DNA of 64,000 nucleotides, taken from a virus. Shown piece after piece: positions 2,766-17,241 of this stretch. A program made the translations under genes and the position numbers. The stretch's first letter is position 1. Each line of letters begins with the position of its first letter. Location of the stretch: positions 1 through 64,000 of IMG/VR virus record IMGVR_UViG_3300049435_000061; one strand, given 5' to 3'. The notes under the pieces are model-generated. The model searched no databases, had not been told where the DNA came from, and saw only the letters and a list, made by a program, of their open reading frames with translations.

Positions 2766-3743
2766 ATGATCAGAAAAATGTCTGATAAGTCTTGTTATTT
2801 ACACCTGCGACTATTATCCTCAACACCTGTGAGCAGGGGTTACACCCTGCCTGGGGGCTGGGAAAAAGCTATCGGGGGATGGCTCGACTGGCTGCGCCTG
2901 CAGGGCCACCGAGACACCACGTTACGGACGCGGCGCGGACAGGTGCGTTCGCTGGCCCGCCAAAGCGGTGTTCGCCACCCCGCCGAAGTCGACGTCGCCT
3001 GCCTGGTGCGCCTGTGCAGTCGACCGGGCGTCAGTTCCGATCACCGGCACGGCCAGCGGGCGGCGCTGATCAGCTTCTACGACTGGTGTGTCGCCAACGC
3101 GGTCACCACCCACAACCCGGCTGCGGCGCTGCCCAAAGTGAAGCCGTCCAAACCCCGTCCCCGGCCCACACCCGACGAGGTGTGGAAACAGTTGGTGGCG
3201 TGCGCACCGCCGCGCGAGACGCTGATGGCCGTGCTGGCGTGCGAGGCCGGTTTGCGGCGTGCCGAGGTGGCCGCACTGCACTACGACGACCTGGTGCGCG
3301 ACCACACCGGGTGGCTGCTGATCATCAACGGTAAAGGCGGCAAACAGCGCGCCGTGCCGATCAACAACCGGCTGGCGCGGGTGCTGCGCACCCACTGTCG
3401 TGGCGGGTATGTGTTTCCCGGCAAAATCGACGGGCACCTGTCACCGGACGCGGTGGGGCGTGTCATATCACGGTTGATGCCGCCAGGGTGGACGATGCAC
3501 AAGTTGAGACACAGGTTCGCCACCAAAGGTTTCAACGGAACCCACAATCTGCTGGCCGTCAAAGAGGCGCTGGGGCATTCCAGTGTCGCGACCACGCAGC
3601 TGTACACGGCGATCAACCTCAGCGATGTTCGCTCGGTTTGTGACGCCGCAACCGAAGATTGGAGTGAATGTGACGATGGACCGGACCAAACTGCGGGGGC
3701 ACACAGAGTTCGAGCTACGACTGGCGTTACGCCAGGAACGTAA
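2766..3743 (+). CDS. int: Tyrosine integrase
   Basis: 325 aa from the ATG at 2766; an ATG at 2778 is an equally plausible start, with AGGGG just upstream. An N-terminal SAM-like core-binding domain (residues ~35-125) precedes the catalytic domain. Catalytic residues are visible: R164 (AGLRRAE), K190/K193 (NGKGGK), H245 and R248 (HKLRHRF), H271 (LGHSS) and nucleophile Y280 (QLYTAI). It should recombine attP in rep with a host tRNA gene. The last ~22 codons overlap the next small gene. Confidence 0.93.
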   Translation: MIRKMSDKSCYLHLRLLSSTPVSRGYTLPGGWEKAIGGWLDWLRLQGHRDTTLRTRRGQVRSLARQSGVRHPAEVDVACLVRLCSRPGVSSDHRHGQRAALISFYDWCVANAVTTHNPAAALPKVKPSKPRPRPTPDEVWKQLVACAPPRETLMAVLACEAGLRRAEVAALHYDDLVRDHTGWLLIINGKGGKQRAVPINNRLARVLRTHCRGGYVFPGKIDGHLSPDAVGRVISRLMPPGWTMHKLRHRFATKGFNGTHNLLAVKEALGHSSVATTQLYTAINLSDVRSVCDAATEDWSECDDGPDQTAGAHRVRATTGVTPGT

Positions 3744-3858: not shown

Positions 3859-3924
3859 CCGACGAGGGGCGGGCCAGGAACTTTGCCCAGCGCCCGGCCC
3901 GCCCCAACCTTAAAACGGCAACAA

Positions 3925-3976
3925 AAAACCCGCCGACCAGTGCACGATTGGAGTAGTGCACCGGCCAGCGGGTTTT
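3925..3976. terminator. Strong bidirectional terminator between int and accessory module
   Basis: A 20-bp interrupted stem: AAAACCCGCCGACCAGTGCA pairs with the arm ending CCAGCGGGTTTT around a short loop, giving U-runs on both strands. It separates the plus-strand int operon from the minus-strand accessory operon that converge here. Confidence 0.85.
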
Positions 3977-4554: not shown

Positions 4555-4588
4555 TGTTGTGTCTCCAATCTTGGTTGTTGTTTTTGGT

Positions 4589-4653
4589 CTGAACAGACCA
4601 GGATGCACACCCCAGGAGCAAAGCTCCTGTGATGTGCACCCCTACCTGTTCAG
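4589..4653 (-). promoter_or_regulatory. Intergenic stem-loop 1 (core A)
   Basis: RNA outer stem CUGAACAG/CUGUUCAG with the UGA stop of the upstream gene inside the 5' arm; core GGUAGGG opposite CCUGGU; inner stem GUGCACA/UGUGCAU then AGGAGC/GCUCCU. The next leader follows. Confidence 0.85.
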
Positions 4654-5126
4654 GTCACAACGACCGTTGCTTGCGGTGGGTAGGGCCGCAGTGCCTTGGC
4701 GTGCGCAAACACCTGACGCGGGTTGAACATGGTGTTTCTCGCGTACATCGAATGTGGGTCACGCCACGGTCGACCGTTCACTTTGAACCATTCCCGGCCT
4801 TCATGCTCATCGAACCAAAGCGCCATGCCGTGGCAGAAGTCGTAGAAGTCTTCAACTGTTTCCACGAACGTCGGAATCGGTTGATGCATGTGCAATTCCG
4901 TGATCTGGTTGGGGTGGTAGGTGTTGGGCACGTTCAACAGGTAGTCGATGCACGCTTCGCGAACCCGAACGTTTTGCACGTTGAAACCGCAGTAGTAGCT
5001 CGGTGTGTGCACCGACATGGACAGGCCGGGTCGCCACGACACGACGGTCAGCAGCCCGTTGAAGTCTTCGACTGTCATGCCGTCGATGCTGGCTTGCAGG
5101 TCTGGTTGGTTTGATACCGTTTCCAT
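4650..5126 (-). CDS. Hypothetical accessory protein, 158 aa
   Basis: ATG at 5126 preceded by the conserved leader. The protein is soluble, acidic to neutral and rich in aromatic and His residues, with no recognisable domain, signal peptide or membrane segment. Its TGA is embedded in stem-loop 1. Judged a real gene from the leader, the stop context and uniform coding character. Confidence 0.75.
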   Translation of the reverse strand: METVSNQPDLQASIDGMTVEDFNGLLTVVSWRPGLSMSVHTPSYYCGFNVQNVRVREACIDYLLNVPNTYHPNQITELHMHQPIPTFVETVEDFYDFCHGMALWFDEHEGREWFKVNGRPWRDPHSMYARNTMFNPRQVFAHAKALRPYPPQATVVVT

Positions 5127-5181
5127 TTCTCTGTCTCCAATCTTGTTTTACCGCTTCGCGATACGCCGCTAAGCGGCTGGT

Positions 5182-5259
5182 CTAAACAGACCGGGCACCA
5201 CAGTGGCCCAGGTGCGACACATGTCGCACCTGAAACACCGTGGCACCCTACCTGTTCAG
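5182..5259 (-). promoter_or_regulatory. Intergenic stem-loop 2 (core A, with nested palindrome)
   Basis: Outer stem CUGAACAG/CUGUUUAG (one G-U pair) holds the UGA of the ASCH gene; core GGUAGGG opposite CCCGGU; the apex is a perfect 22-bp palindrome at 5210-5231 centred on GGTGCGAC-ACAT-GTCGCACC. A second small hairpin (CCGCTTAGCGG) lies before the leader. Confidence 0.85.
5210..5231. repeat. Dispersed palindrome, copy 1
   Basis: GGTGCGACACATGTCGCACC (5211-5230), a perfect inverted repeat extended by A/T flanks. Related sites lie at 12194, 36723, 52767 and 59873. Confidence 0.6.
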
Positions 5260-5648
5260 GTCCTTTCTAGTATTCGTCGTTCCCGTTCCGACATGAGTCG
5301 CGCGTCCGGCACCCACAACCCCTGCTGCCCACGGCACTGGATCGGGCGATCCAGGGGTCGTGGATTGGACAGCAGCCAGTGATACTGCCCACGTGCAGCC
5401 CAGCGGCTTCGGCTGTTGTCGACCACGCCGACCAGGTCGACCACGCCGACAATCACGCCACCTGGCATACCGACCAGCAGGTCATAGCCTCGTTTTTCCA
5501 AGACTCGGCCACCCTCATAGTCGAAGGTTTTCCCGGCGTGAATCGCTAGCGGCCCACGGTATTCTGTGGTCCACGTGCGGTTTTCGACGTCCTTCCCGAA
5601 CGCGATGATGGCATGCGCCCATGGCTGTCTGACGGTGAGGGCATACAT
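5256..5648 (-). CDS. ASCH-domain protein
   Basis: 130 aa. MYALTVRQPWAHAII at the start plus GKDVENRTW and the GPLAIHAGK strand are diagnostic of the ASCH fold, a PUA-like RNA-binding beta-barrel. The start ATG at 5648 shares a base with the TAA of the preceding gene (TAATG), so translation is coupled and no leader is present. Phage ASCH proteins are thought to bind RNA or modified nucleotides; the partner here is unknown. Confidence 0.85.
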   Translation of the reverse strand: MYALTVRQPWAHAIIAFGKDVENRTWTTEYRGPLAIHAGKTFDYEGGRVLEKRGYDLLVGMPGGVIVGVVDLVGVVDNSRSRWAARGQYHWLLSNPRPLDRPIQCRGQQGLWVPDARLMSERERRILERT

Positions 5649-5821
5649 TATGCGAACTCCCATCTGCCGCAGCGGTTGCCGTTGACGTCGAAGACACGTC
5701 CGACGCCACTGTCGTCAACGTTGATGTCGTCGGCGACTTTGTGCAGGATGCGTTGCAGCTCACCGATAGGATCATCGGTGAAAGCTGACCCGTGGTCGGT
5801 GTACACGGTGAGAGTGAACAT
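5648..5821 (-). CDS. Hypothetical 57-aa protein
   Basis: The ATG at 5821 overlaps the TGA of the upstream gene (ATGA) and its TAA overlaps the ASCH start, so it is the middle gene of a three-gene coupled unit. MFTLTVYTDHG then GELQRILHKVADDI suggests a small alpha/beta protein. No family recognised. Confidence 0.65.
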   Translation of the reverse strand: MFTLTVYTDHGSAFTDDPIGELQRILHKVADDINVDDSGVGRVFDVNGNRCGRWEFA

Positions 5822-6255
5822 CACACACCCACCAATACAACCTCGTGCCATTGCAGGTCGGCCCACTTGGTGTCCCAGTGCGCTGCCCAGCGCAGAATCC
5901 CTTGCGGATTCAGCACATAGACATATTCGGTATCCCAATACTCATGGGCGTCTTCAGGTGTGGCGTAGTGCTCATTGCCTTGCTCACCGATGTACCGAAC
6001 ACCGAACCCTGCCACTAGCTCAAAGCGGTCAGGGTCGGTGGGATACATCTCACCAGTGGGGTTGCCGTCGAACGATGACCACCCTGCCGGTGTATGTAAC
6101 AAGGTGCTCACTACGCGGTCGATACCATGGGTGGCAATCAACCGTTGCAGTGTTTGCACCTTGCCCCACTGACCATCTGGGTAGCCATCGCTGTGGACAT
6201 AGACCAGTCGGATGCCGGAATCGGTTTCTGCACCGATAAGGCTTCTGGTACTCAT
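5821..6255 (-). CDS. Conserved-type hypothetical protein, 144 aa
   Basis: Starts MSTRSLIG at 6255 just after the leader. Tyr, Trp and His are frequent, with no signal peptide, membrane segment or cysteine motif. Proteins beginning MSTRSLIG with HSDGYPDG are familiar from phages and plasmids, but no activity is known to me. First gene of a coupled trio with the 57-aa and ASCH proteins. Confidence 0.7.
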   Translation of the reverse strand: MSTRSLIGAETDSGIRLVYVHSDGYPDGQWGKVQTLQRLIATHGIDRVVSTLLHTPAGWSSFDGNPTGEMYPTDPDRFELVAGFGVRYIGEQGNEHYATPEDAHEYWDTEYVYVLNPQGILRWAAHWDTKWADLQWHEVVLVGV

Positions 6256-6322
6256 TGTTGTCTCCAATCTTGTTTCATTGGCGCAAGCACCAACTACCGG
6301 CTACGCCGGTCGGATGTTCAGG

Positions 6323-6385
6323 CTGAACAACCGTGGAAGCCAACACCGCTGCTAGGCAGCGGAATTGGCAACCATGACGGTTCAG
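6323..6385 (-). promoter_or_regulatory. Intergenic stem-loop 3 (variant core)
   Basis: Outer stem CUGAAC/GUUCAG contains the UGA of the 33-aa membrane gene; inner GCCAA/UUGGC and CCGCUGC/GCAGCGG stems. The core differs from A and B (ccgu/acgg). A further hairpin (ACCGGCGTAGCCGGT) and then the leader follow. Confidence 0.75.
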
Positions 6386-6483
6386 TGCATTGTCATGCTG
6401 GTCTCAGCGATCAGGAACAGCACAACCACGTACAGAACAACGAGCAGAAACAGCTCGGCTACAACCAGTCCGGTGTAGCCCAC
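6382..6483 (-). CDS. Small single-pass membrane protein, 33 aa
   Basis: A GTG at 6483 opens a frame that overlaps the last 25 nt of the clamp gene and continues beyond its stop. Residues ~6-26 (LVVAELFLLVVLYVVVLFLI) form one hydrophobic helix; the tail is AETSMTMH. The stop is embedded in stem-loop 3, as for the well-supported genes of this module, which argues that it is translated. Function unknown. Confidence 0.6.
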   Translation of the reverse strand: MGYTGLVVAELFLLVVLYVVVLFLIAETSMTMH

Positions 6484-7187
6484 TGACGTGGGTCGTCGTC
6501 GCCGAATTTGACCGGCATCACCAGGCCTACGAAGTCGTCGCCGATGGTGACAGTCAACGGCTTCTGGCCATACCCGTATGCACTGTCGTGGGCATAGACG
6601 AAGATCCGGCTGGCCCGGTCGCCGGTGCCTTTCACCTTGCCGAACGATGCGAGATATTCGGCGGTGAAAGCCGTTGCGTGACGCGACTTGGCGAGCACGT
6701 CACGCATGTTTTGCGCGGTTTGTGCCGTCACCTTGGCCGTTGAATCCGGCGCTGGCAGCGGCGGCAACGACACCGACTTGGGGAACAGTCCACGGAACTT
6801 CGGGAAGTCGACGTCGGCGATCCTCGCCGCAGCCAAGCTGCCGTCGTTGAATGTGAACTGCACCGACTTGCCATCCGATGTGACATCGACGGCACGCCAG
6901 CCCTCTTCTGCACGCTTTGTCTTGGCGGATTGGATGAGCCGCTTGACGTCGTCCAGATAGAGTGACATTGACACCTCGTCGCCGTCGAGCACCTTGGCCC
7001 GTGAAACGCCCAACCGGAACCTGTCGGTAGCGATTGCGAGAACCTGGTCTTTGTCGAATTCAAGGCGCACCACGTTGATGCCGGGCAGTGTCACGTCCGT
7101 GGACGCAAACAGGCTCGCGTCGCTGAGGATTCGGTGCAGATCGACCGATTGAACCGTGCCCAACTTAAGGGTGGTTGCTGTACTCAT
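6459..7187 (-). CDS. DnaN-like sliding clamp homologue (short)
   Basis: 242 aa; start MSTATTLKL at 7187 is fixed by the leader. LAIATDRFRLGVSRA corresponds to the conserved ATDRYRLA block of bacterial beta clamps, and FNDGSLAAARIADVDFPKFR to the strand leading to the second domain. Bacterial DnaN is about 370 aa, so roughly one domain is missing, as in several phage clamp homologues. It may load onto the replication machinery or decoy the host clamp. Upstream is stem-loop 4. Confidence 0.75.
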   Translation of the reverse strand: MSTATTLKLGTVQSVDLHRILSDASLFASTDVTLPGINVVRLEFDKDQVLAIATDRFRLGVSRAKVLDGDEVSMSLYLDDVKRLIQSAKTKRAEEGWRAVDVTSDGKSVQFTFNDGSLAAARIADVDFPKFRGLFPKSVSLPPLPAPDSTAKVTAQTAQNMRDVLAKSRHATAFTAEYLASFGKVKGTGDRASRIFVYAHDSAYGYGQKPLTVTIGDDFVGLVMPVKFGDDDPRQWATPDWL

Positions 7188-7264
7188 TTTTGTGTCTCCA
7201 ATCTTGTTTGACCTGTTCAACACCGGCACTTTGCCGGTGTGACCGGTCGACAGACCGGTTGGTT

Positions 7265-7319
7265 CTGAACAGACCAGGCTACCCACAACTTGTGGTTGTG
7301 GGCACCCCTACCGGTTCAG
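7265..7319 (-). promoter_or_regulatory. Intergenic stem-loop 4 (core A)
   Basis: Outer stem CUGAAC/GUUCAG with the stop UGA inside; core GGUAGGGG opposite CCUGGUCU; inner stem CCCACAA/UUGUGGG. Two more hairpins (ACCGGTC.GACCGGT and CACCGGC.GCCGGTG) lie between it and the clamp leader. Confidence 0.85.
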
Positions 7320-7726
7320 TCGAGTGTGACGAAGCTTTGCCACGGCAATGGGTCAGCCCATTGGCGCTTGACGCTTTCGGCGTGTTCACGCGCCTCGGAT
7401 TCCGTTGCGAACCAGTAGGCCCGCAGGTCGTGCTGGTCGTCGCCGATCCAGTCGTGCTCGGGTTTGAAATTGTCGACCGGCACCCAACACTGTGGATCGC
7501 TGCTGCTGTCGACGTCGAACGGAACACACAACGTTTGACCGCCAAGCAGTTTGACGGTTTGGCCGGTGATGCGTGCCACGCCGACCTCGATGTCGACTAT
7601 CCGGTCAGGGTCGGGTTCATCGTCGCCCGCACATATCGGGAGAACGCTGACACCCCACCCTTGATGGAAGGTGAAACGCACCGACAGATCCAACCACCGT
7701 TCCGCCGCTTCATATGTGTCACTCAT
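7316..7726 (-). CDS. Hypothetical acidic protein, 136 aa
   Basis: Start MSDTYEAAERW at 7726, after a leader with one substitution. Strongly acidic, Trp-rich, ending in a helix-rich tail (EAREHAESVKRQW). No domain recognised. Its stop lies in stem-loop 4 and stem-loop 5 precedes it, so it is a monocistronic-like unit within the module. Confidence 0.7.
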   Translation of the reverse strand: MSDTYEAAERWLDLSVRFTFHQGWGVSVLPICAGDDEPDPDRIVDIEVGVARITGQTVKLLGGQTLCVPFDVDSSSDPQCWVPVDNFKPEHDWIGDDQHDLRAYWFATESEAREHAESVKRQWADPLPWQSFVTLD

Positions 7727-7751
7727 GTTTGTCTCCAATCCTGTTGTGGTC

Positions 7752-7805
7752 CTAAACAGACCAGGCAACCACCCGCTGCCCCGGGTGGCTCCCCTACCGG
7801 TTTAG
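7752..7805 (-). promoter_or_regulatory. Intergenic stem-loop 5 (core A)
   Basis: Outer stem CUAAAC/GUUUAG: relative to stem-loop 4 the third pair has changed from G-C to A-U, which turns the embedded stop from UGA to UAA. Core GGUAGGGG opposite CCUGGUCU; inner CCACCCG/CGGGUGG stem. Confidence 0.9.
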
Positions 7806-8008
7806 TCGCGGAGTCGTTCTATCTTGTCGTCGCATCGTTGGCAGATGGGTACCTGCCCCAACACGGGGTGGTCGCGCAACCCGTTGGCGGGGTTGGTGCA
7901 CTTGGCGAACCATTCGCACAGTGCGTACCCGTACCCATATCTCCGATGTTGTTCCAGCAGTGCATCGCCGGTTTGTTGCACCCGGTCGTCAATGTTGAGG
8001 CGGCTCAT
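7802..8008 (-). CDS. Small zinc-binding protein, 68 aa
   Basis: ATG at 8008 overlaps the preceding TGA (ATGA). A Cys pair (CEWFAKC) and a CQRC pair near the C-terminus give a plausible four-Cys zinc site. The N-terminal half is helical. Likely co-translated with the 168-aa gene. Function unknown. Confidence 0.65.
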   Translation of the reverse strand: MSRLNIDDRVQQTGDALLEQHRRYGYGYALCEWFAKCTNPANGLRDHPVLGQVPICQRCDDKIERLRD

Positions 8009-8511
8009 TTCGGTGCCACCTCACTGCACTGCCACACCCGCACGTTGACGTCGACATGCACGGCGTTGTGTGCCGTCCAGTGGTCGCGGTGGAAAAACCA
8101 GAACCGGGTGGGACGTGTCTCACCTGTGTCAGTCAACGTGTTGACTGGCACCGAACCGTACAGCCCACCGGAAAAGTTTCCGTTGCCACTGGATTGCAAG
8201 TGCCACGAGCCACCGTTGATCCGGCGTCCACGATCCGATGTGGCATCCGACGTTTGTACGCCGCCACTCGGTGGATGGGATTGTGCGTCGCCGAACCACA
8301 CGTAGCTGATTCGGCGCGTCACGCCATCGGCGAACTCGACCCAATCGCCTTCCAGTGGGAGCGGGTTGGCGAGACGTTTGGTTTGACGTTCATTAAGCAA
8401 CCCAATGTCTTTCGGGTCGGGTGTGAACACCGGGTGCTCACCGCTGAAATTCCAGCAGCGCCACACCTCACTGTCCGCCGAGACGATGCGCGGTACTTCT
8501 GTTGTGTTCAT
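8005..8511 (-). CDS. Hypothetical protein, 168 aa
   Basis: Start MNTTEVPRI at 8511, fixed by the leader. Contains a long Gly/Ser-rich central stretch and several Trp/Phe clusters (TRFWFFHRDHW). No recognised domain. First gene of a two-gene coupled unit with the small zinc protein. Confidence 0.7.
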   Translation of the reverse strand: MNTTEVPRIVSADSEVWRCWNFSGEHPVFTPDPKDIGLLNERQTKRLANPLPLEGDWVEFADGVTRRISYVWFGDAQSHPPSGGVQTSDATSDRGRRINGGSWHLQSSGNGNFSGGLYGSVPVNTLTDTGETRPTRFWFFHRDHWTAHNAVHVDVNVRVWQCSEVAPK

Positions 8512-8534
8512 TGTGTCTCCAATCTTGTTGTGGT

Positions 8535-8589
8535 CTAAGCAGACCAGGCAACCACCCGCTTACAACGGGTGGCTCCCCTACCGGCTTAG
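8535..8589 (-). promoter_or_regulatory. Intergenic stem-loop 6 (core A)
   Basis: Outer stem CUAAGC/GCUUAG: pairs three and five both differ from stem-loop 4 yet still pair, clear covariation; UAA stop embedded. Core GGUAGGGG opposite CCUGGUCU; inner CCACCCG/CGGGUGG stem. Confidence 0.9.
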
Positions 8590-8834
8590 TCCCTTTCGGC
8601 GGTGATTGCTTTGGCCGGGACTATCACTGTTGTGGTGTTGTCGTCGTCGGCGAGTACGGCGAACGCGCGGTGAAATTCCCGCGTGGTGAGTCGCACCACA
8701 CGCCCGAATCGGCGTGGTTCGCCGTCGAACTGCCACGACACCCGGTCACCACGTTCGATACGGTCTGTTGCATCGAGTATGGTCTTGCTTGGCGGGCAGG
8801 CAATGTCCAGCGGCTTGTGCTGTTTGATACCCAT
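8586..8834 (-). CDS. Hypothetical 82-aa protein, small beta-barrel-like
   Basis: Start MGIKQHKPL at 8834 after the leader. The order ERGDRVSWQFDGEPRRFG, RVVRLTT, AFAVLADDD, TTVIVPAKAI suggests an SH3-like or KOW-like beta-barrel, as in small nucleic-acid-binding proteins. That fold call is by eye. Flanked by stem-loops 6 and 7. Confidence 0.65.
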   Translation of the reverse strand: MGIKQHKPLDIACPPSKTILDATDRIERGDRVSWQFDGEPRRFGRVVRLTTREFHRAFAVLADDDNTTTVIVPAKAITAERD

Positions 8835-8861
8835 TTCTTGTCTCCAATCTTGTTACGGTGT

Positions 8862-8918
8862 TTGAACACACCAGCCCCCACACAGGCACGGATGTCTGTG
8901 TGGGAGAGTCATGTTCAA
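8862..8918 (-). promoter_or_regulatory. Intergenic stem-loop 7 (core B)
   Basis: Outer stem UUGAAC/GUUCAA (first pair U-A in place of C-G), UGA embedded; core AUGACUC opposite GCUGGUGU; inner CCCACACAG/CUGUGUGGG stem with loop shared with stem-loop 9. Confidence 0.85.
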
Positions 8919-9250
8919 CTGATGTAGGTTCCGACGACGACACTGTCATAGTCGTATCGGGTTTCGACACGGCCACGGTCGTCTTCGATAACAGGCCAAC
9001 GGAACACAACACCGGAATAGAACGAATCCGACTGGTACAAATCCCAGTCGGTGATCCCGATGTTGCGTGCCAGTCCATCGCAGTCGGTGGTGTCATACCA
9101 GCGATTGCGATACTGGACGAAACGCGGTGAGAATTCATCCTCGCCGGTCACGTAGTCGAAGTCTTTGCGAGCCTCAACCGGCAGCTGGTCAAACGCCACC
9201 AGCTCACGCCAGTGGTAGTTGGTCGTGATTTTCACGTGCTTGTCCATCAT
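8915..9250 (-). CDS. Hypothetical protein, 111 aa
   Basis: Opens with ATGATG at 9250/9247, one base from the stop of the upstream gene, so it is coupled rather than leader-driven. Rich in Tyr, Asp and Trp (WDLYQSDSFYSGVVFRW). No recognised domain. Ends in stem-loop 7. Confidence 0.65.
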   Translation of the reverse strand: MMDKHVKITTNYHWRELVAFDQLPVEARKDFDYVTGEDEFSPRFVQYRNRWYDTTDCDGLARNIGITDWDLYQSDSFYSGVVFRWPVIEDDRGRVETRYDYDSVVVGTYIS

Positions 9251-9523
9251 TCACTTCCCAACGGGGTATTCTTCGACAAGTTTGCGCAGGCCGAACATGC
9301 TGTCAGACGGCAGTTCCCGCACATAATGTGTGAGCACGGATGCCTGACCGACATCCTGCCCGTCAATCAGCACCCGCGCCGTCTTGTGGTCGCGGGCACC
9401 GGCAGGCATTAGCTCTGCGCGACCTTCGCGGGCCGCTGTGAGCACCATGCGGCGCGCTGCCGAATAGTTGTGCACGGCCAGCGCGTCACGGACCTGCGCG
9501 ACGAGGGTGATTGTGTTACCCAT
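9251..9523 (-). CDS. Hypothetical 90-aa protein
   Basis: Start MGNTITLVAQV at 9523 set by the leader. N-terminal helices (VRDALAVHNYSAARRMVLTA) and a more polar C-terminal half. No domain recognised. First of two coupled genes between stem-loops 8 and 7. Confidence 0.65.
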   Translation of the reverse strand: MGNTITLVAQVRDALAVHNYSAARRMVLTAAREGRAELMPAGARDHKTARVLIDGQDVGQASVLTHYVRELPSDSMFGLRKLVEEYPVGK

Positions 9524-9571
9524 TGTTGTCTCCAATCTTGTTGGCGCGCAGCGCGTTGCTACGCAATGGTG

Positions 9572-9629
9572 CTGAACACACCAGCAGCTCACACGGACGC
9601 GAACGCCCGTGTGGCTGAGTCATGTTCAG
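9572..9629 (-). promoter_or_regulatory. Intergenic stem-loop 8 (core B)
   Basis: Outer stem CUGAAC/GUUCAG with embedded UGA of the ArdC-like gene; core AUGACUCAGC opposite GCUGCUGGUGU; inner CACACGG/CCGUGUG stem. A GC-rich hairpin follows before the leader. Confidence 0.85.
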
Positions 9630-10549
9630 TTGTAGTCGGGTTCCAGCTGGTCGTAGTGCGACTTGCGTCCCGCCACCAGAATTTTGTCGGTGACACTGAA
9701 GATGGATCGCACCACGTTGTCGTTGACGGCCAAGTTGCCGTCATCGTCCAGGTAGTCGACGGTACTGCCTTTCAACCACCCTTGGATGTACGCACGGCTG
9801 CTGGCGGCGTCGAACTGTTCGACGTCCAGTTCTGTGCAGACCAGCAGTGCGACGGCCTCGGCTTGGAACTCCCGAATGTCGCGCGGGTGCTCTTTTTTGG
9901 TGCCGTGGTCTTCGGTGTGGCCCAACAGAATGTGCGCCCACTCATGGATCATTGTTTTGAACGGCGACACAGCTACCGGGTTGAGCGCAAACTTGCGGTC
10001 AACACTGTAGCCTTGCACGTTGCCGTCGTGATGGCTGAACCGGGTTTCGGTCACATCCAACACGTCGGCGGCCTGCTTGCGATCCCAGCTGGGCAACGTC
10101 GGCATCGGCAGATCGGGTCCTTCCGTTTGGAACAGCTGGAACACTGAGGCTTTCGGGTAGAACCCGACAACCTTCATCTCTGCTTTACCGTTGGCTTTGA
10201 GGATCGTGTTGCCGTCGTGGTCACGTAGCGGCGCGAACTGCGGGTGGTTCACCCACAGCGCGGAGCCGGGTCCGCTGATCACTTTGCGGTCCAACGACTG
10301 CCATTTGCGGAACGTTGCTATCGGCTCAAACTGCCCGGTCTGCATAAGCACCAGGAGAATGTTGAGCATCGAGTAGCGGTGAAACCGGTTGTAGCAGTTC
10401 GACAACCTTCCCGGCGCTGTCAGCGCGAACTGAAGAACCGCGACCAGATCAATCTTGCCGTTGTCGTGCAACGGCAGGTCAGACTTGGTGACGTCGCGGC
10501 GACCTTTGCTCGGCTTGGACGCCTTGCGGGTTTGGGTTGCTGTTGTCAT
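9626..10549 (-). CDS. ArdC-like antirestriction protein with zincin peptidase domain
   Basis: 307 aa; start MTTATQTRK at 10549 after a leader variant. The N-terminal half (YSMLNILLVLMQTG, FRKWQSLDRKV, GSALWV) matches the ArdC single-stranded-DNA-binding domain. The C-terminal half is a gluzincin-like metallopeptidase: H202-E203-x-x-H206 in IHEWAHILLGH with a likely third ligand E231 in REFQAEAVALL. ArdC proteins protect incoming DNA from restriction. Its place in a small-gene module supports a counter-defence role, although no restriction target can be inferred. Confidence 0.85.
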   Translation of the reverse strand: MTTATQTRKASKPSKGRRDVTKSDLPLHDNGKIDLVAVLQFALTAPGRLSNCYNRFHRYSMLNILLVLMQTGQFEPIATFRKWQSLDRKVISGPGSALWVNHPQFAPLRDHDGNTILKANGKAEMKVVGFYPKASVFQLFQTEGPDLPMPTLPSWDRKQAADVLDVTETRFSHHDGNVQGYSVDRKFALNPVAVSPFKTMIHEWAHILLGHTEDHGTKKEHPRDIREFQAEAVALLVCTELDVEQFDAASSRAYIQGWLKGSTVDYLDDDGNLAVNDNVVRSIFSVTDKILVAGRKSHYDQLEPDYN

Positions 10550-10576
10550 TTTGAGTCTCCAATCTTGTTTTTGGTG

Positions 10577-10634
10577 CTGAACACACCAGCAGCACACACA
10601 GGCACGGATGTCTGTGTGGCTGAGTCATGTTCAG
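10577..10634 (-). promoter_or_regulatory. Intergenic stem-loop 9 (core B)
   Basis: Outer stem CUGAAC/GUUCAG; the upstream UAA stop directly abuts the stem. Core AUGACUCAGC opposite GCUGCUGGUGU; the apical stretch CACAGACATCCGTGCCTGTG is identical to that of stem-loop 7. Confidence 0.85.
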
Positions 10635-10967
10635 TTAGTCGCCAATGGCGTAGCCGTCGATGCCGCCGCAGCGACTACATTCGACGGCGTCATGCCAGGC
10701 GTGTTGCCGATATACGGCGTCGTCTTCACTGTGGCAGTAACGGCAGCGCACTTTCGGCGAAACATAGTGCGCCGCTTTAGGTATTGTCGGGTCAGCGTGA
10801 AGCCATTCACCCATGCCGTATGATCCACCGTTCGGATCGTAAACGAGCTGTTCATCACATGTCTTGCAGTGGTGAACGTCTGGCAGTATTTCAACGTCAA
10901 TGGTGGGAAGTGTGCAGTAGTTGCCTCGTTTGGCATCCGCAAACATCTCTAACGTTGTGCTCATCAT
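10635..10967 (-). CDS. Multi-zinc-ribbon protein, 110 aa
   Basis: Opens ATGATG at 10967 after the leader. Three CxxC pairs are visible (CKTC, CRYC, CSRC) with nearby His residues, giving probably two zinc sites, one in the middle and one at the C-terminus. No catalytic motif. Possibly nucleic-acid binding. Its UAA immediately precedes stem-loop 9. Confidence 0.7.
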   Translation of the reverse strand: MMSTTLEMFADAKRGNYCTLPTIDVEILPDVHHCKTCDEQLVYDPNGGSYGMGEWLHADPTIPKAAHYVSPKVRCRYCHSEDDAVYRQHAWHDAVECSRCGGIDGYAIGD

Positions 10968-10987
10968 TGTCTCCAATCTTGGTTGGG

Positions 10988-11082
10988 CTGAGATACCCAG
11001 TGGCGCAGTCAGACGCAACTGTAAGCGTCGCCAGGGGCGGCGAGATGCGCTGTTGGCGTCTGACTGGCCAAGTGTTTCTCAG
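10988..11082 (-). promoter_or_regulatory. Intergenic stem-loop 10 (long variant)
   Basis: Outer stem CUGAGA/UCUCAG (pairs five and six changed but complementary); inner CAGUCAGACGC/GCGUCUGACUG 11-bp stem with a branched apex. The UGA of the 49-aa membrane gene lies 2 nt before the stem. Confidence 0.75.
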
Positions 11083-11457: not shown

Positions 11458-11478
11458 TGCGATTCTCCAATCTTGTTG

Positions 11479-11497
11479 CTAGTGAAAAGCGCACTAG
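11479..11497 (-). promoter_or_regulatory. Short hairpin before the first accessory leader
   Basis: CTAGTG/CACTAG 6-bp stem with a 7-nt loop, directly upstream of the leader of the 11457 gene; a minimal version of the module's stem-loops with no upstream stop codon. Confidence 0.6.
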
Positions 11498-11532
11498 CAC
11501 GCGGTCGAGGACATCTATAAATCCCCGTGAAA

Positions 11533-11559
11533 CCCAACCAGTCGGTGAGACTGGTTGGG
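11533..11559. terminator. Perfect 11-bp hairpin, terminator or attenuator
   Basis: CCCAACCAGTC/GACTGGTTGGG around 5 nt; followed by TTT on the minus strand only, so a weak terminator for leftward RNA entering the accessory module, or a protective 5' structure. Confidence 0.45.
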
Positions 11560-11580: not shown

Positions 11581-11594
11581 GAGGAGACTATTCT
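11581..11594 (-). repeat. Right copy of 14-bp inverted repeat bounding accessory module
   Basis: Minus strand AGAATAGTCTCCTC, exact inverse of 3988-4001. Confidence 0.5.
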
Positions 11595-12193
11595 CAACTA
11601 TTACAGCTCACTACAATTTCACGGTGCGGGTCGCGGGACACAAGTCTCAGATAAATGTTCTCGCAGAAGCTTCATCAGCATGACACGCACTTAAGTCGGA
11701 TACTCTCGTGGGCTGCATTCGTCTCTATAGGGCATATGTTCATTGCGCGTAGACGGTTTCGGTCACTCTTGAGTGGTCGCTGGTCGTCTCGGTCGTTGGG
11801 CGCGGCTTCGGGCTTTGCACTGATCAACGGTGGTCGTAGCGCGTCTCATATGTCTGTGTCTCTCGGGCTGGTTCACGGAGTGGGTTCAGGCGCGGAAGCG
11901 GCTGCTGGTCAAACGGTGTCCCTGGGACTTGTTTTGATCGGTATGTACTTGTACATCCGATCATAGTAAGACGGGTGTACGGAAGTCAAGTAAAACAAGC
12001 AGTTAGCCAGGAGTCACAGTAAACTCACATACGTGCAGCTCAGAGCACTGCCGACCATGGTTGATCTTGTTTGCTTAGTTGCCAGAAATGTGGCGAATGT
12101 GGACGGTGTTAAACCGGTCAACACATGTGGTGAAAGTGCAGGATCAGAATGCACAAAACGTGATCTTTCCACTGGGACAACACATCTCGCCCA

Positions 12194-15007: not shown

Positions 15008-15280
15008 TTATTTCTCGTGACGACCAGCGGTCCCGGTGGTGACCAGGGATGGGCTGTCGGAGCTACCGAGCGGGATGGAACCCAACGACGTCGCCACCGA
15101 CAGCACCGCGCCGGAAAGTGCAGCGCCGACAATGATCTTCCAGTCCAGGCTGTAGGCGTTGGCCACCGGTCCGACATGGTCGGCGACGACGACACCGGCA
15201 ACAAACTGGCCCGCCGTCTTGACGGCACGTTCTGCGACCTGCTTCCAAAAAATAAGTGTGAACATGGTGTTGCCTTTCAT
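15008..15280 (-). CDS. Holin, r1t-like
   Basis: 90 aa from ATG 15280 (ATGA overlap), or MFTLIF at 15265. FWKQVAERAVKTAGQFVAG, then a second helix WKIIVGAALSGAVLSVATSL matches the phage r1t holin pattern with two membrane segments and a short charged tail. It would make the membrane lesions that release or activate the lysins encoded at 21.8-23.0 kb. Confidence 0.8.
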   Translation of the reverse strand: MKGNTMFTLIFWKQVAERAVKTAGQFVAGVVVADHVGPVANAYSLDWKIIVGAALSGAVLSVATSLGSIPLGSSDSPSLVTTGTAGRHEK

Positions 15281-17241
15281 GGTGTTGCCGGGTTGTCCCG
15301 GTCGTCTTTGGGACGCTTGAAGATTCGGTTGTCGTCGGGTGTCCACAGGCGGTCGCCGCTGCGCACCGTCCCGCTGTTGGTGTCAACGGCGAAAGCGACA
15401 CGCCCACCGGGTCCAACTTTGAATGTGCGTGACGACGGAATGATCGGTCGTGCACCGCCGATGACGACGGGCACACCGAACACCAGCTCCGAGACGATGC
15501 TGGCGGGGGCGACGTCCTGGTTGAGCAGAAACAGGATGAACTGGCCGAACCGTTGGCCACTGTCGATGCCTGCCGGTGCGACAATGTAGGCCAGCGTTGC
15601 ATGGCCCGCCCGGTCGCTCGCCGGAATCGAGTGGGCGGCAACAATTGTTCCCAGCGTGACACCGCCCAACAACTCTGTTGAACCGATGCCTGCTGGCGTG
15701 ACAGTGACCGCGCCGGGCGTGGCGGCAGCCGCACCGAACGCCTCGACGCTGACAACGCCTGTGGGGCTGACTGTGACGGTGCCCGGTGTGACGGTGGGTG
15801 TGCCGAACCGGTCGACACCAGGAATCCCTGTCGGTGCGATGATGACCGCAGCTGTGACCGCTGGCGTGCCGAACCACTCATCGGATCGGATGCCTGCTGG
15901 CGTGACGGTGACGGTGCCCGGTGTGACGACTGTGCCGCCCAACGTTTCACCACTGACAATGCCGTGCAGGCTGAGGTTGACCACGCCAGGTGTGACGATG
16001 GGTGTGCCGAAACGGTCGACACCGGGAATGCCTGCCGGTGCAATGATGACAGTGAACGTAACTGCTGGCGTCCCGAACCGCTCATCAGGTCGAATGCCCG
16101 CTGGCGAGATGGTGACCGCGCCCGGTGTGATGACCTGTACACCGAACGCTTCGACGCTGACAATGCCTGTGGGGCCGACTGTGACGGTGCCCGGTGTGAC
16201 AATGGGTGTGCCGAACCGCTCGACACCGGGAATGGACGCCGGTGCGATGATGGACACGCCGGTCACCACCGATGGCCCACCCAAAAGTTCGCCTGTAGCA
16301 ATGCCCGCCGATGTGACATACAGGACGGTGGTGGGAACACCGATCTGCTCGACGCCGCCGATGCCGTTGGGTGCCACAATGTACGCGGTCGCCACCGACC
16401 CGAGCGCGGAGCCGCCGTCGATGCTGGCGGGCATCACCGCAAAGCCGAGTGCCGCGCTACCCAACTGTTGTGCGCTCGCGATACCGACCGGTGAGATTGT
16501 GACCGCACCCGGTGTGACGGCTAGTGCACCAGCGGCTTCGGTGCTGACAATGCCTGTCGGTGTGACAGTGACCGTACCGGGTGTGACAGTTGACGCACCT
16601 GGTCGTTCGTCGCTGGCAATGCCTGCTGCTGTGATGGCCACGCCAAGTGCGGTGCCACCCAGCCGTTCACCGCTGGCAACGCCTGTCGGTGCGACGTCTA
16701 TGGTGCCGGTGGTTGCGCCCAACCGTTCAGCACTTGCGATGGCTGCTGGGGCAACCGTGACCACACCGGGCGTGACTGTTTGCGCACCAGCGGTTTCCGC
16801 TGACGGGATGCCTGTCGGTGTGACGGTGGCCGTACCGGGTGCGACAGTTGGCGCACCTGCCCGTTCAGCGGTGGCAATGCCTGCCGGTGTGACAGTGACA
16901 GTGCCCGGTGTGACTGTTTGCGCACCAACGGCTTCCGTGCTGGCGATGCCTGCCGGTGTGACGTTGACGGTGCCGGTGGTTGCGCCTAAACGTTCGGCGG
17001 TGGGGATGCCTGTTGGTGCGACGGTGACAACGTTGGTCTGGGTGGCTACACCTAAACGTTCACCGCTGGCAATACCTGTTGGCGCGATGGTGACGGTGCC
17101 AGGTGTAACAGTCTGTACACCAGCGGCTTCCGCGCTCGCGATGCCTGCTGGTGCAATCGTCTGCGGCGGCCCACTCGTCGCGACAGGCCCAACAAGCGGC
17201 TTGTACGACGCTACTGGGTATGACCGCCCAGCGCGGGCCAT
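15277..17241 (-). CDS. Large 26-repeat structural protein
   Basis: 654 aa. From residue ~27 to ~590 it consists of about 26 tandem units of 20-23 residues with consensus xPxGIxSxExxGxxTVTPGTVTV, in which Gly-Ile, an acidic residue and a final beta-strand are the most constant. The regular period suggests a beta-solenoid or fibre. The C-terminal ~50 residues are basic and non-repetitive. Units vary between TVTPGTVTV and shorter spacers, implying unequal duplication. It lies between the lysins and holin with other appendage genes, so a host-contacting fibre or capsid/tail decoration is the best guess. Confidence 0.7.
   Translation of the reverse strand: MARAGRSYPVASYKPLVGPVATSGPPQTIAPAGIASAEAAGVQTVTPGTVTIAPTGIASGERLGVATQTNVVTVAPTGIPTAERLGATTGTVNVTPAGIASTEAVGAQTVTPGTVTVTPAGIATAERAGAPTVAPGTATVTPTGIPSAETAGAQTVTPGVVTVAPAAIASAERLGATTGTIDVAPTGVASGERLGGTALGVAITAAGIASDERPGASTVTPGTVTVTPTGIVSTEAAGALAVTPGAVTISPVGIASAQQLGSAALGFAVMPASIDGGSALGSVATAYIVAPNGIGGVEQIGVPTTVLYVTSAGIATGELLGGPSVVTGVSIIAPASIPGVERFGTPIVTPGTVTVGPTGIVSVEAFGVQVITPGAVTISPAGIRPDERFGTPAVTFTVIIAPAGIPGVDRFGTPIVTPGVVNLSLHGIVSGETLGGTVVTPGTVTVTPAGIRSDEWFGTPAVTAAVIIAPTGIPGVDRFGTPTVTPGTVTVSPTGVVSVEAFGAAAATPGAVTVTPAGIGSTELLGGVTLGTIVAAHSIPASDRAGHATLAYIVAPAGIDSGQRFGQFILFLLNQDVAPASIVSELVFGVPVVIGGARPIIPSSRTFKVGPGGRVAFAVDTNSGTVRSGDRLWTPDDNRIFKRPKDDRDNPATP

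Follow-up and report, generated by a model that had tools for sequence, protein, structure and literature searches.

Ten Intergenic Stem-Loops Between the Gene Groups of a Leftward Actinophage Operon Can Form Two Alternative RNA Pairings

The Locus and Its Ten Long Hairpins

The IMG/VR virus record IMGVR_UViG_3300049435_000061 is 74.5 kb long, and 64 kb of it (hereafter, the window) were analyzed here, with attention to ten long hairpins that occupy the gaps of one leftward operon of small genes, among them ArdC-like, sliding clamp, ASCH-like, and DUF3846 genes. The portal protein of this phage is ~60% identical to the portals of Mycobacterium and Gordonia phages, and the sole integrase examined in the window (2766–3743) belongs to the tyrosine recombinases of the Phage_integrase type; because of this kinship and this gene, the virus is probably a temperate actinophage. 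Each gene group of the operon is led by a start-associated repeat (SAS), AACAAGATTGGAGACA, and each of the ten gaps between SAS-led groups contains one hairpin element, with none found at any of the overlapping gene junctions of the operon. An earlier note, made from the sequence alone, had described foldable stem-loops in every non-overlapping gap, and all ten were recovered where it had placed them. The analysis reported below shows that these elements are RNA structures on the coding strand, in which two pairings, an outer stem (P1) and a small alternative hairpin (Palt), are both under selection.

In the long-hairpin fold (state 1), P1, whose 5′ arm usually carries a stop codon, is followed by a conserved, wobble-rich internal loop and by a long stem of free sequence (P2). 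The ten elements, all on the minus strand, fold at free energies (ΔG) of −28 to −58 kcal/mol, with z-scores of −3.5 to −9.1 relative to 200 dinucleotide shuffles per element. The core was expected from the earlier note to be invariant; instead, there are two main types, GGUAGG/CUGGUC (type A; E1, E2, E4, E5, and E6) and GACUC/CUGGUG (type B; E7–E9), from which E3 and E10 deviate. Within type A, a TGA stop codon lies in the 5′ arm of E1 (4589–4653, stop at 4652–4650; ΔG −46.3, z −9.1), E2 (5182–5259, stop at 5258–5256; ΔG −57.5, z −9.0), and E4 (7265–7319; ΔG −30.7, z −4.7), and a TAA in that of E5 (7752–7805; ΔG −30.0, z −3.7) and E6 (8535–8589; ΔG −32.8, z −5.3). E3 (6323–6385; ΔG −35.3, z −6.0) has a third core, CAUGG/CCACGG; its 5′ arm holds a TGA, as do the arms of the type B elements E7 (8862–8918; ΔG −29.1, z −5.0) and E8 (9572–9629; ΔG −34.9, z −5.5). 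The stop codon is thus inside the arm in exactly eight of the ten elements, as had been counted before; the exceptions are the type B element E9 (10577–10634; ΔG −27.6, z −3.5), with a TAA immediately 5′ of the arm, and the divergent E10 (10988–11082; ΔG −49.6, z −6.6), with a TGA 4 nt upstream of it.

Compensatory changes at four positions of the outer stem, also part of the earlier description, can be read directly from the sequence: C–G to U–A at position 1 (E7), G–C to A–U at position 3 (E5 and E6), A–U to G–C at position 5 (E6 and E10), and C–G to A–U at position 6 (E10). None of the ten hairpins is followed by a U-tract, and an Rfam search of the 64-kb window returned no match at the gathering score.

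Selection on the Outer Stem at the RNA Level

The larger tests of P1 used 37 non-redundant elements from several phages. Watson–Crick pairs fill 210 of the 222 P1 positions, compared with 151 ± 6 when the 3′ arms are permuted (0 of 2000), a significance that is inflated by the relatedness of paralogous copies within a genome and against whose inflation a separate set of 21 elements guards. Because MAFFT misaligned type B when applied to whole hairpins, the alignment (36 rows) was made ungapped from both arms with P2 cut out, which fixes the register by construction. Paired cells make up 89.3% of this alignment versus 72.1 ± 1.2% in controls, and double-change cells number 105 versus 38 ± 6, with double changes in 10 of the 14 pairs. 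The covariation score is 0.51, as against 0.21 after shuffling and at most 0.23 in slid registers, in every one of which pairing was far lower. Covariation in an enlarged alignment, the point on which the earlier note had staked its reading beforehand, is therefore present far above controls.

The two strands also differ. The sense strand is the more stable in 34 of the 37 elements, by 8.8 kcal/mol on average (p = 2e-7), and in 17 of the 21 elements of the separate set (p = 9e-4); fixed G–U pairs are present in the P1/core alignment. Such a coding-strand asymmetry is not expected of a DNA palindrome but is expected of RNA, which tolerates G–U pairs. Together, asymmetry and covariation strongly support the earlier proposal that these stem-loops are selected for pairing as RNA. 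Within P1, the stop codon lies in register at arm positions 2–4 in 25 of the 37 elements, where it is faced by a matching anti-stop triplet (UCA for UGA, CUA for UAG, and UUA for UAA, with one G–U exception). In total, state 1 holds 20–37 pairs (mean, 24).

An Alternative Small Hairpin

Directly upstream of the next gene's start repeat is a second hairpin that the earlier note had missed, as it had the SAS copies. In Palt, the short sequences that immediately flank the 3′ arm of P1 pair with each other, so that this arm becomes the loop. Since nucleotides are shared, P1 and Palt are mutually exclusive; in state 2, P2 is kept, the stop codon is freed, and the 3′ arm of P1 sits in the Palt loop. 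A pseudoknot in which both form simultaneously was considered and rejected: with helices in the order a, b, a′, b′ and a linker crossing P1 of only 0–1 nt between a′ and b′, there should be no room for both.

The ten Palt hairpins of the window, all on the minus strand, vary in sequence and length. RNAfold gave −7.3 for UGGUCU-GUUC-AGACCA at E1 (4585–4600), −6.2 for GGUCU-GUUU-AGACC at E2 (5179–5192), −7.0 for UGGUCU-GCUU-AGACCA at E6 (8531–8546), −7.7 and −7.9 for the identical UGGUG-UGUUCAG-CACCA hairpins at E8 (9567–9583) and E9 (10572–10588), and −6.8 for UGGGU-loop-GCCCA at E10 (10984–10999). At E4 (UGGU-loop-ACCA; 7260–7276), the value of −5.2 applies to the region, with the register shifted, and at E5 (UGGUC-UGUUUAG-GACCA; 7747–7763) a two-state scan gave −7.5. 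The weak hairpin of E3 (GGUU-GUUC-AGCC; 6321–6332) and that of E7 (GGUGU-GUUCAA-ACACC; 8857–8872) were read from the sequence.

Across the element set, the two sides of Palt covary (GGUC/GACC, GGUG/CACC, GCUC/GAGC, GCUGC/GCAGC, CUGUAC/GUACAG, and UGUGC/GCACA), and phages examined later added GAUGG/CCAUC, GGUUC/GAACC, and GGUUUC/GAAACC. For the 37 elements, the mean Palt energy is −7.2 natively versus −4.4 ± 0.34 after tails were swapped between elements. In the 21 elements not used in forming the Palt idea, the corresponding values are −6.6 and −3.4 ± 0.35 (0 of 500 swaps as good), and the hairpin recurs in 21 of 21. The helix is also longer than in controls (5.8 versus 4.6 ± 0.17; 0 of 2000), and more than 25 different helices were counted. 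State 1 is favored by 4.7 kcal/mol on average in the 37 elements (range, −0.7 to −8.7), and when positions 1–13 are blocked during folding, Palt forms in all 37.

Start Repeats and the Ends of the Operon

The SAS contains a Shine–Dalgarno sequence and is present in 11 copies, all at starts; elsewhere in the window, a search of both strands allowing up to one mismatch found none save one chance match. On the minus strand, the copies lie at 4562–4572 (AAGATTGGAGA), 5134–5144, 6261–6271, 7195–7205, 7732–7742 (AGGATTGGAGA), 8516–8526, 8841–8851, 9529–9539, 10556–10566, 10970–10980, and 11464–11474. The last belongs to the first gene of the operon, which no gene precedes and which has no long element ahead of it; directly ahead of its SAS, in the place of Palt, there is just a small hairpin that folds as GCUAGUG-CGCUUUU-CACUAGC (11478–11498).

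The probable start of the operon is a promoter-like site, TTGACT-N18-TATGAT (11960–11989, minus strand), the sole such site that the module has on its coding strand, although the count of promoter-like sites is not above that of shuffles. At the other end, on the same strand (about 3920–3973), stands a classic intrinsic terminator, GGCGGGTTTTTTGTT, in which a stem is followed by TTTTTTGTT.

The leader ahead of the first gene holds further features on the minus strand. At 11588–11573, GTCTCC..AATCTTG is complementary to the SAS and might occlude the start site of the first gene or act in trans on every start repeat; in the window, the leader:SAS duplex (−16.7) outranks all others on that strand, yet it does not surpass chance sites in other parts of the genome. 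The complementary sequence lies within a leader stretch, AGTTGAGAAT, that is conserved between the window and a metagenomic relative of this phage, L099 (about 1745–1775), and GC-rich hairpins come after it. A strong hairpin at 11559–11533, CCCAACCAGTC-TCACC-GACTGGTTGGG, has an 11-bp stem and a short run of T (TTTC); placed between promoter and first gene, it may attenuate the operon. Farther away, at 15277–17241 (minus strand), a 654-aa protein with many degenerate VTPAGIASxERxGA repeats is encoded, probably a tail or surface protein.

Relatives in Other Phages

A search with DUF3846 led to the Cluster M mycobacteriophages, whose stem-loops upstream of the repeats CR3/CR4 are called characteristic of the cluster in a passage of a genome announcement (PMC7953290). 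In their rightmost leftward operon, the same cassette recurs, namely a hairpin with a stop codon in its 5′ arm, then ACACGGAGAAGGGA, then ATG. As in the window, the stem-loops of Bongo, Rey, Estes, and Aziz lie between leftward genes, share both main core types (GGUAGG/CUGGUC and GACUC/CUGGUG), allow a Palt-type alternative hairpin, and are followed by a start repeat. They differ in that this repeat is ACACGGAGAAGGGA rather than AACAAGATTGGAGACA and in an additional core, GGAGG/CUGCUG, that is Cluster M's own. Window elements align without gaps with those of Bongo, Estes, Rey, Reindeer, and Nanosmite in a common register (6-nt arm, core, CUGSUS, 6-nt arm), whereas the phages are otherwise unrelated to ours at the DNA level. 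The CR3/CR4 repeat itself was not found in the window, which uses AACAAGATTGGAGACA. By sequence, then, the window elements belong to the Cluster M kind of stem-loop and not to the CR3/CR4 repeat families, and the stem-loops described in that passage are their closest relatives.

The earlier note had looked instead to the SAS and extended SAS (ESAS) of Cluster K mycobacteriophages. These do resemble the present system in that a short repeat stands at start codons and roughly half of the copies have an inverted repeat upstream. The ESAS, however, are 17-bp inverted repeats with a SigA-like promoter beside GGGATAGGAGCCC, and their sequences are unrelated to those of the window, where the SAS differs as well and the gaps contain no promoter-like site on the coding strand. 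Cluster M is therefore the closer comparison, and the covariance model (CM) built here is negative on the Cluster K phage Anaya.

Elements also occur in other genomes. L099 carries 14 start repeats and 13 elements; two of its operon genes match operon genes of the window, although its structural proteins match mostly at 52–78% identity, so the elements persist while genes turn over. An ArdC-like gene is common to the window (10549–9626) and L099 (6573–7514), at 66% identity, yet it is preceded by a type B element in the former and a type A element in the latter; genes and elements therefore reassort. A 78.6-kb IMG/VR record (L171/L218) has a few elements, and Gordonia phage Keelan has elements with a different start repeat, one core resembling that of E3. 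Because the elements are found in phages with unrelated start repeats, the hairpin core is shared independently of the repeat sequence.

Several searches came back empty. The CM was negative on phages Kudefre, Jeon, Weasels2, and ValentiniPuff, as on Anaya; its sensitivity is limited, for within the window version R1 scores E1 (43.1 bits), E4 (40), E5 (40.4), E6 (40.5), E8 (25.8), and E9 (31.1) but misses E2, E3, E7, and E10. The E-values of the CM are rough. Among the portal relatives, neither start repeat nor element was found by pattern or CM. Exact-pattern scans of IMG/VR for the hairpins gave chance matches only, a protein scan of the same database with the ArdC-like protein gave no relatives, and scanning GTDB for the Cluster M repeat turned up just scattered single matches in unrelated bacteria. 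In Rhodococcus phage Weasels2 (L222), gaps of a leftward operon around 25792, 27968, and 29178 contain stop-overlapping hairpins that are AT-rich and lack the known cores; these are possibly a further, distant variant.

What the Elements May Do

The best explanation, and one we hold with about even confidence, is a two-state RNA element at which RNase III-like cutting insulates each gene group. An RNase III-like activity would cut the 20–37 bp long hairpin, most likely within the internal loop, on the 3′ strand. P2 would then stay with the upstream mRNA and cap its 3′ end, and the downstream mRNA would be capped at its 5′ end by refolding into Palt, with the start repeat kept single-stranded. 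Every gene group would thereby become its own stable message, translated independently. Cutting would be delayed until translation of the upstream gene is over, since a terminating ribosome would sit on P1 and the core as far as the foot of P2. Cutting accounts for the free sequence of P2, the conserved internal loop, Palt, and the small hairpin before the first SAS. RNase III sites call for a duplex of about two helical turns, and state 1 supplies one. Like the RNase III processing hairpins of phage T7, the window elements are long hairpins with an internal loop between operon cistrons; they differ in that they are known from sequence alone, with cleavage predicted, and in that the host is an actinobacterium. 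We know of no stop-codon pairing or alternative hairpin in the T7 structures.

A number of points weigh against this reading, besides the relatedness of paralogous copies already mentioned. First genes of Cluster M operons also have long hairpins, and the rule that long hairpins occur only between genes is thus not general. About one third of the elements have no stop codon in the arm, and the action of an RNase III on RNAs of this sort is, for these phages, itself a prediction. GC-rich DNA often yields local hairpins: 80 background hairpins averaged −4.5, and 45% reached −4.8. Energy by itself would therefore not establish Palt, for which the swap tests and covariation make the case.

The main rival, which we consider rather unlikely, is a sensor of translation termination: a ribosome at the embedded stop would mask P1 and the core and let Palt form, whereas P1 would form in untranslated RNA, and the state of the junction would tune how well the next gene is translated or how stable it is, or would read upstream translation. 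The locked position of the stop in two thirds of the set (25 of 37) speaks for such a sensor, as do the closeness of the two states in energy and the appearance of Palt in every element on blocking. P2 begins about 12 nt past the stop, which would place it near the edge of a terminating ribosome, whose footprint is well established. The elements resemble attenuators and antiterminators in having two overlapping, exclusive helices between which a ribosome is able to decide; neither helix is a terminator here, however, and the deciding position is a gene-end stop codon, not a leader peptide. Against a sensor, the start repeat is single-stranded in either state, which leaves no clear output, and one third of the elements have their stop outside the arm. 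Less likely still is a translational regulon, in which a phage or host protein would read the internal loop and start repeat and control the whole operon. In its favor, the core is conserved in sequence and P2 is not, and just two or three types of core recur among the phages; there is, however, no candidate protein, the start repeat differs wholly among phages that share a core, and Palt is left unexplained.

That the elements act as DNA, as operators, promoters, or recombination sites, seems highly improbable. They are palindromic and dispersed, the gene content around them turns over, and the ESAS offer a precedent: their inverted repeats give no support to pairing at the RNA level (PMC3203893), and later work interpreted them as promoters resembling those of SigA (PMC11373665). 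The strong coding-strand asymmetry in stability, the fixed G–U pairs, and the varying length of the Palt loop speak against a DNA-level role, as does the lack of promoter-like sites in the gaps. Integron attC core sites (RYYYAAC/GTTRRRY) are not matched by the arms, CTGAAC/GTTCAG, and the integrase examined (2766–3743) belongs to the Phage_integrase family. Transcription terminators or pause sites, suggested by GC-rich hairpins in gaps, find equally little credit: the hairpins have no U-tract, unlike the true terminator of the operon, and ten in series would silence the distal genes. Of the functions floated in the earlier note, intrinsic termination is thus not supported, and processing or insulation of each cistron would still be the best model. 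Cutting by an RNase III-like activity and sensing of termination are compatible with one another.

Significance

The kind of stem-loop is already known from Cluster M, as PMC7953290 reports in the passage cited above. What is new here is the membership of the window phage and L099, the extension to a Gordonia phage, and the quantitative case for RNA; compared with that passage, the anti-stop arm and the alternative hairpin, and hence the two-state design, look new. Tentatively, and with somewhat less than even confidence, we propose an RNA family, widespread in actinophages and missing from Rfam, that serves as a gene-end switch between a stop/anti-stop fold and a cap for the next message, the junction being reset by termination or cutting.

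What the start-associated repeats and stem-loops of mycobacteriophages do has been a question since 2011, and one kind of them is shown here to be a conserved RNA structure, shared by phages that have different hosts. An alignment and a covariance model are provided, together with predicted cut sites and predicted mutations that should break and restore function; the model offers a testable account of how operons of this type might be cut or insulated. The cassettes could serve actinobacterial genetics as intergenic insulators, and similar ones may be a general actinophage device through which many small early genes are expressed independently from one promoter.

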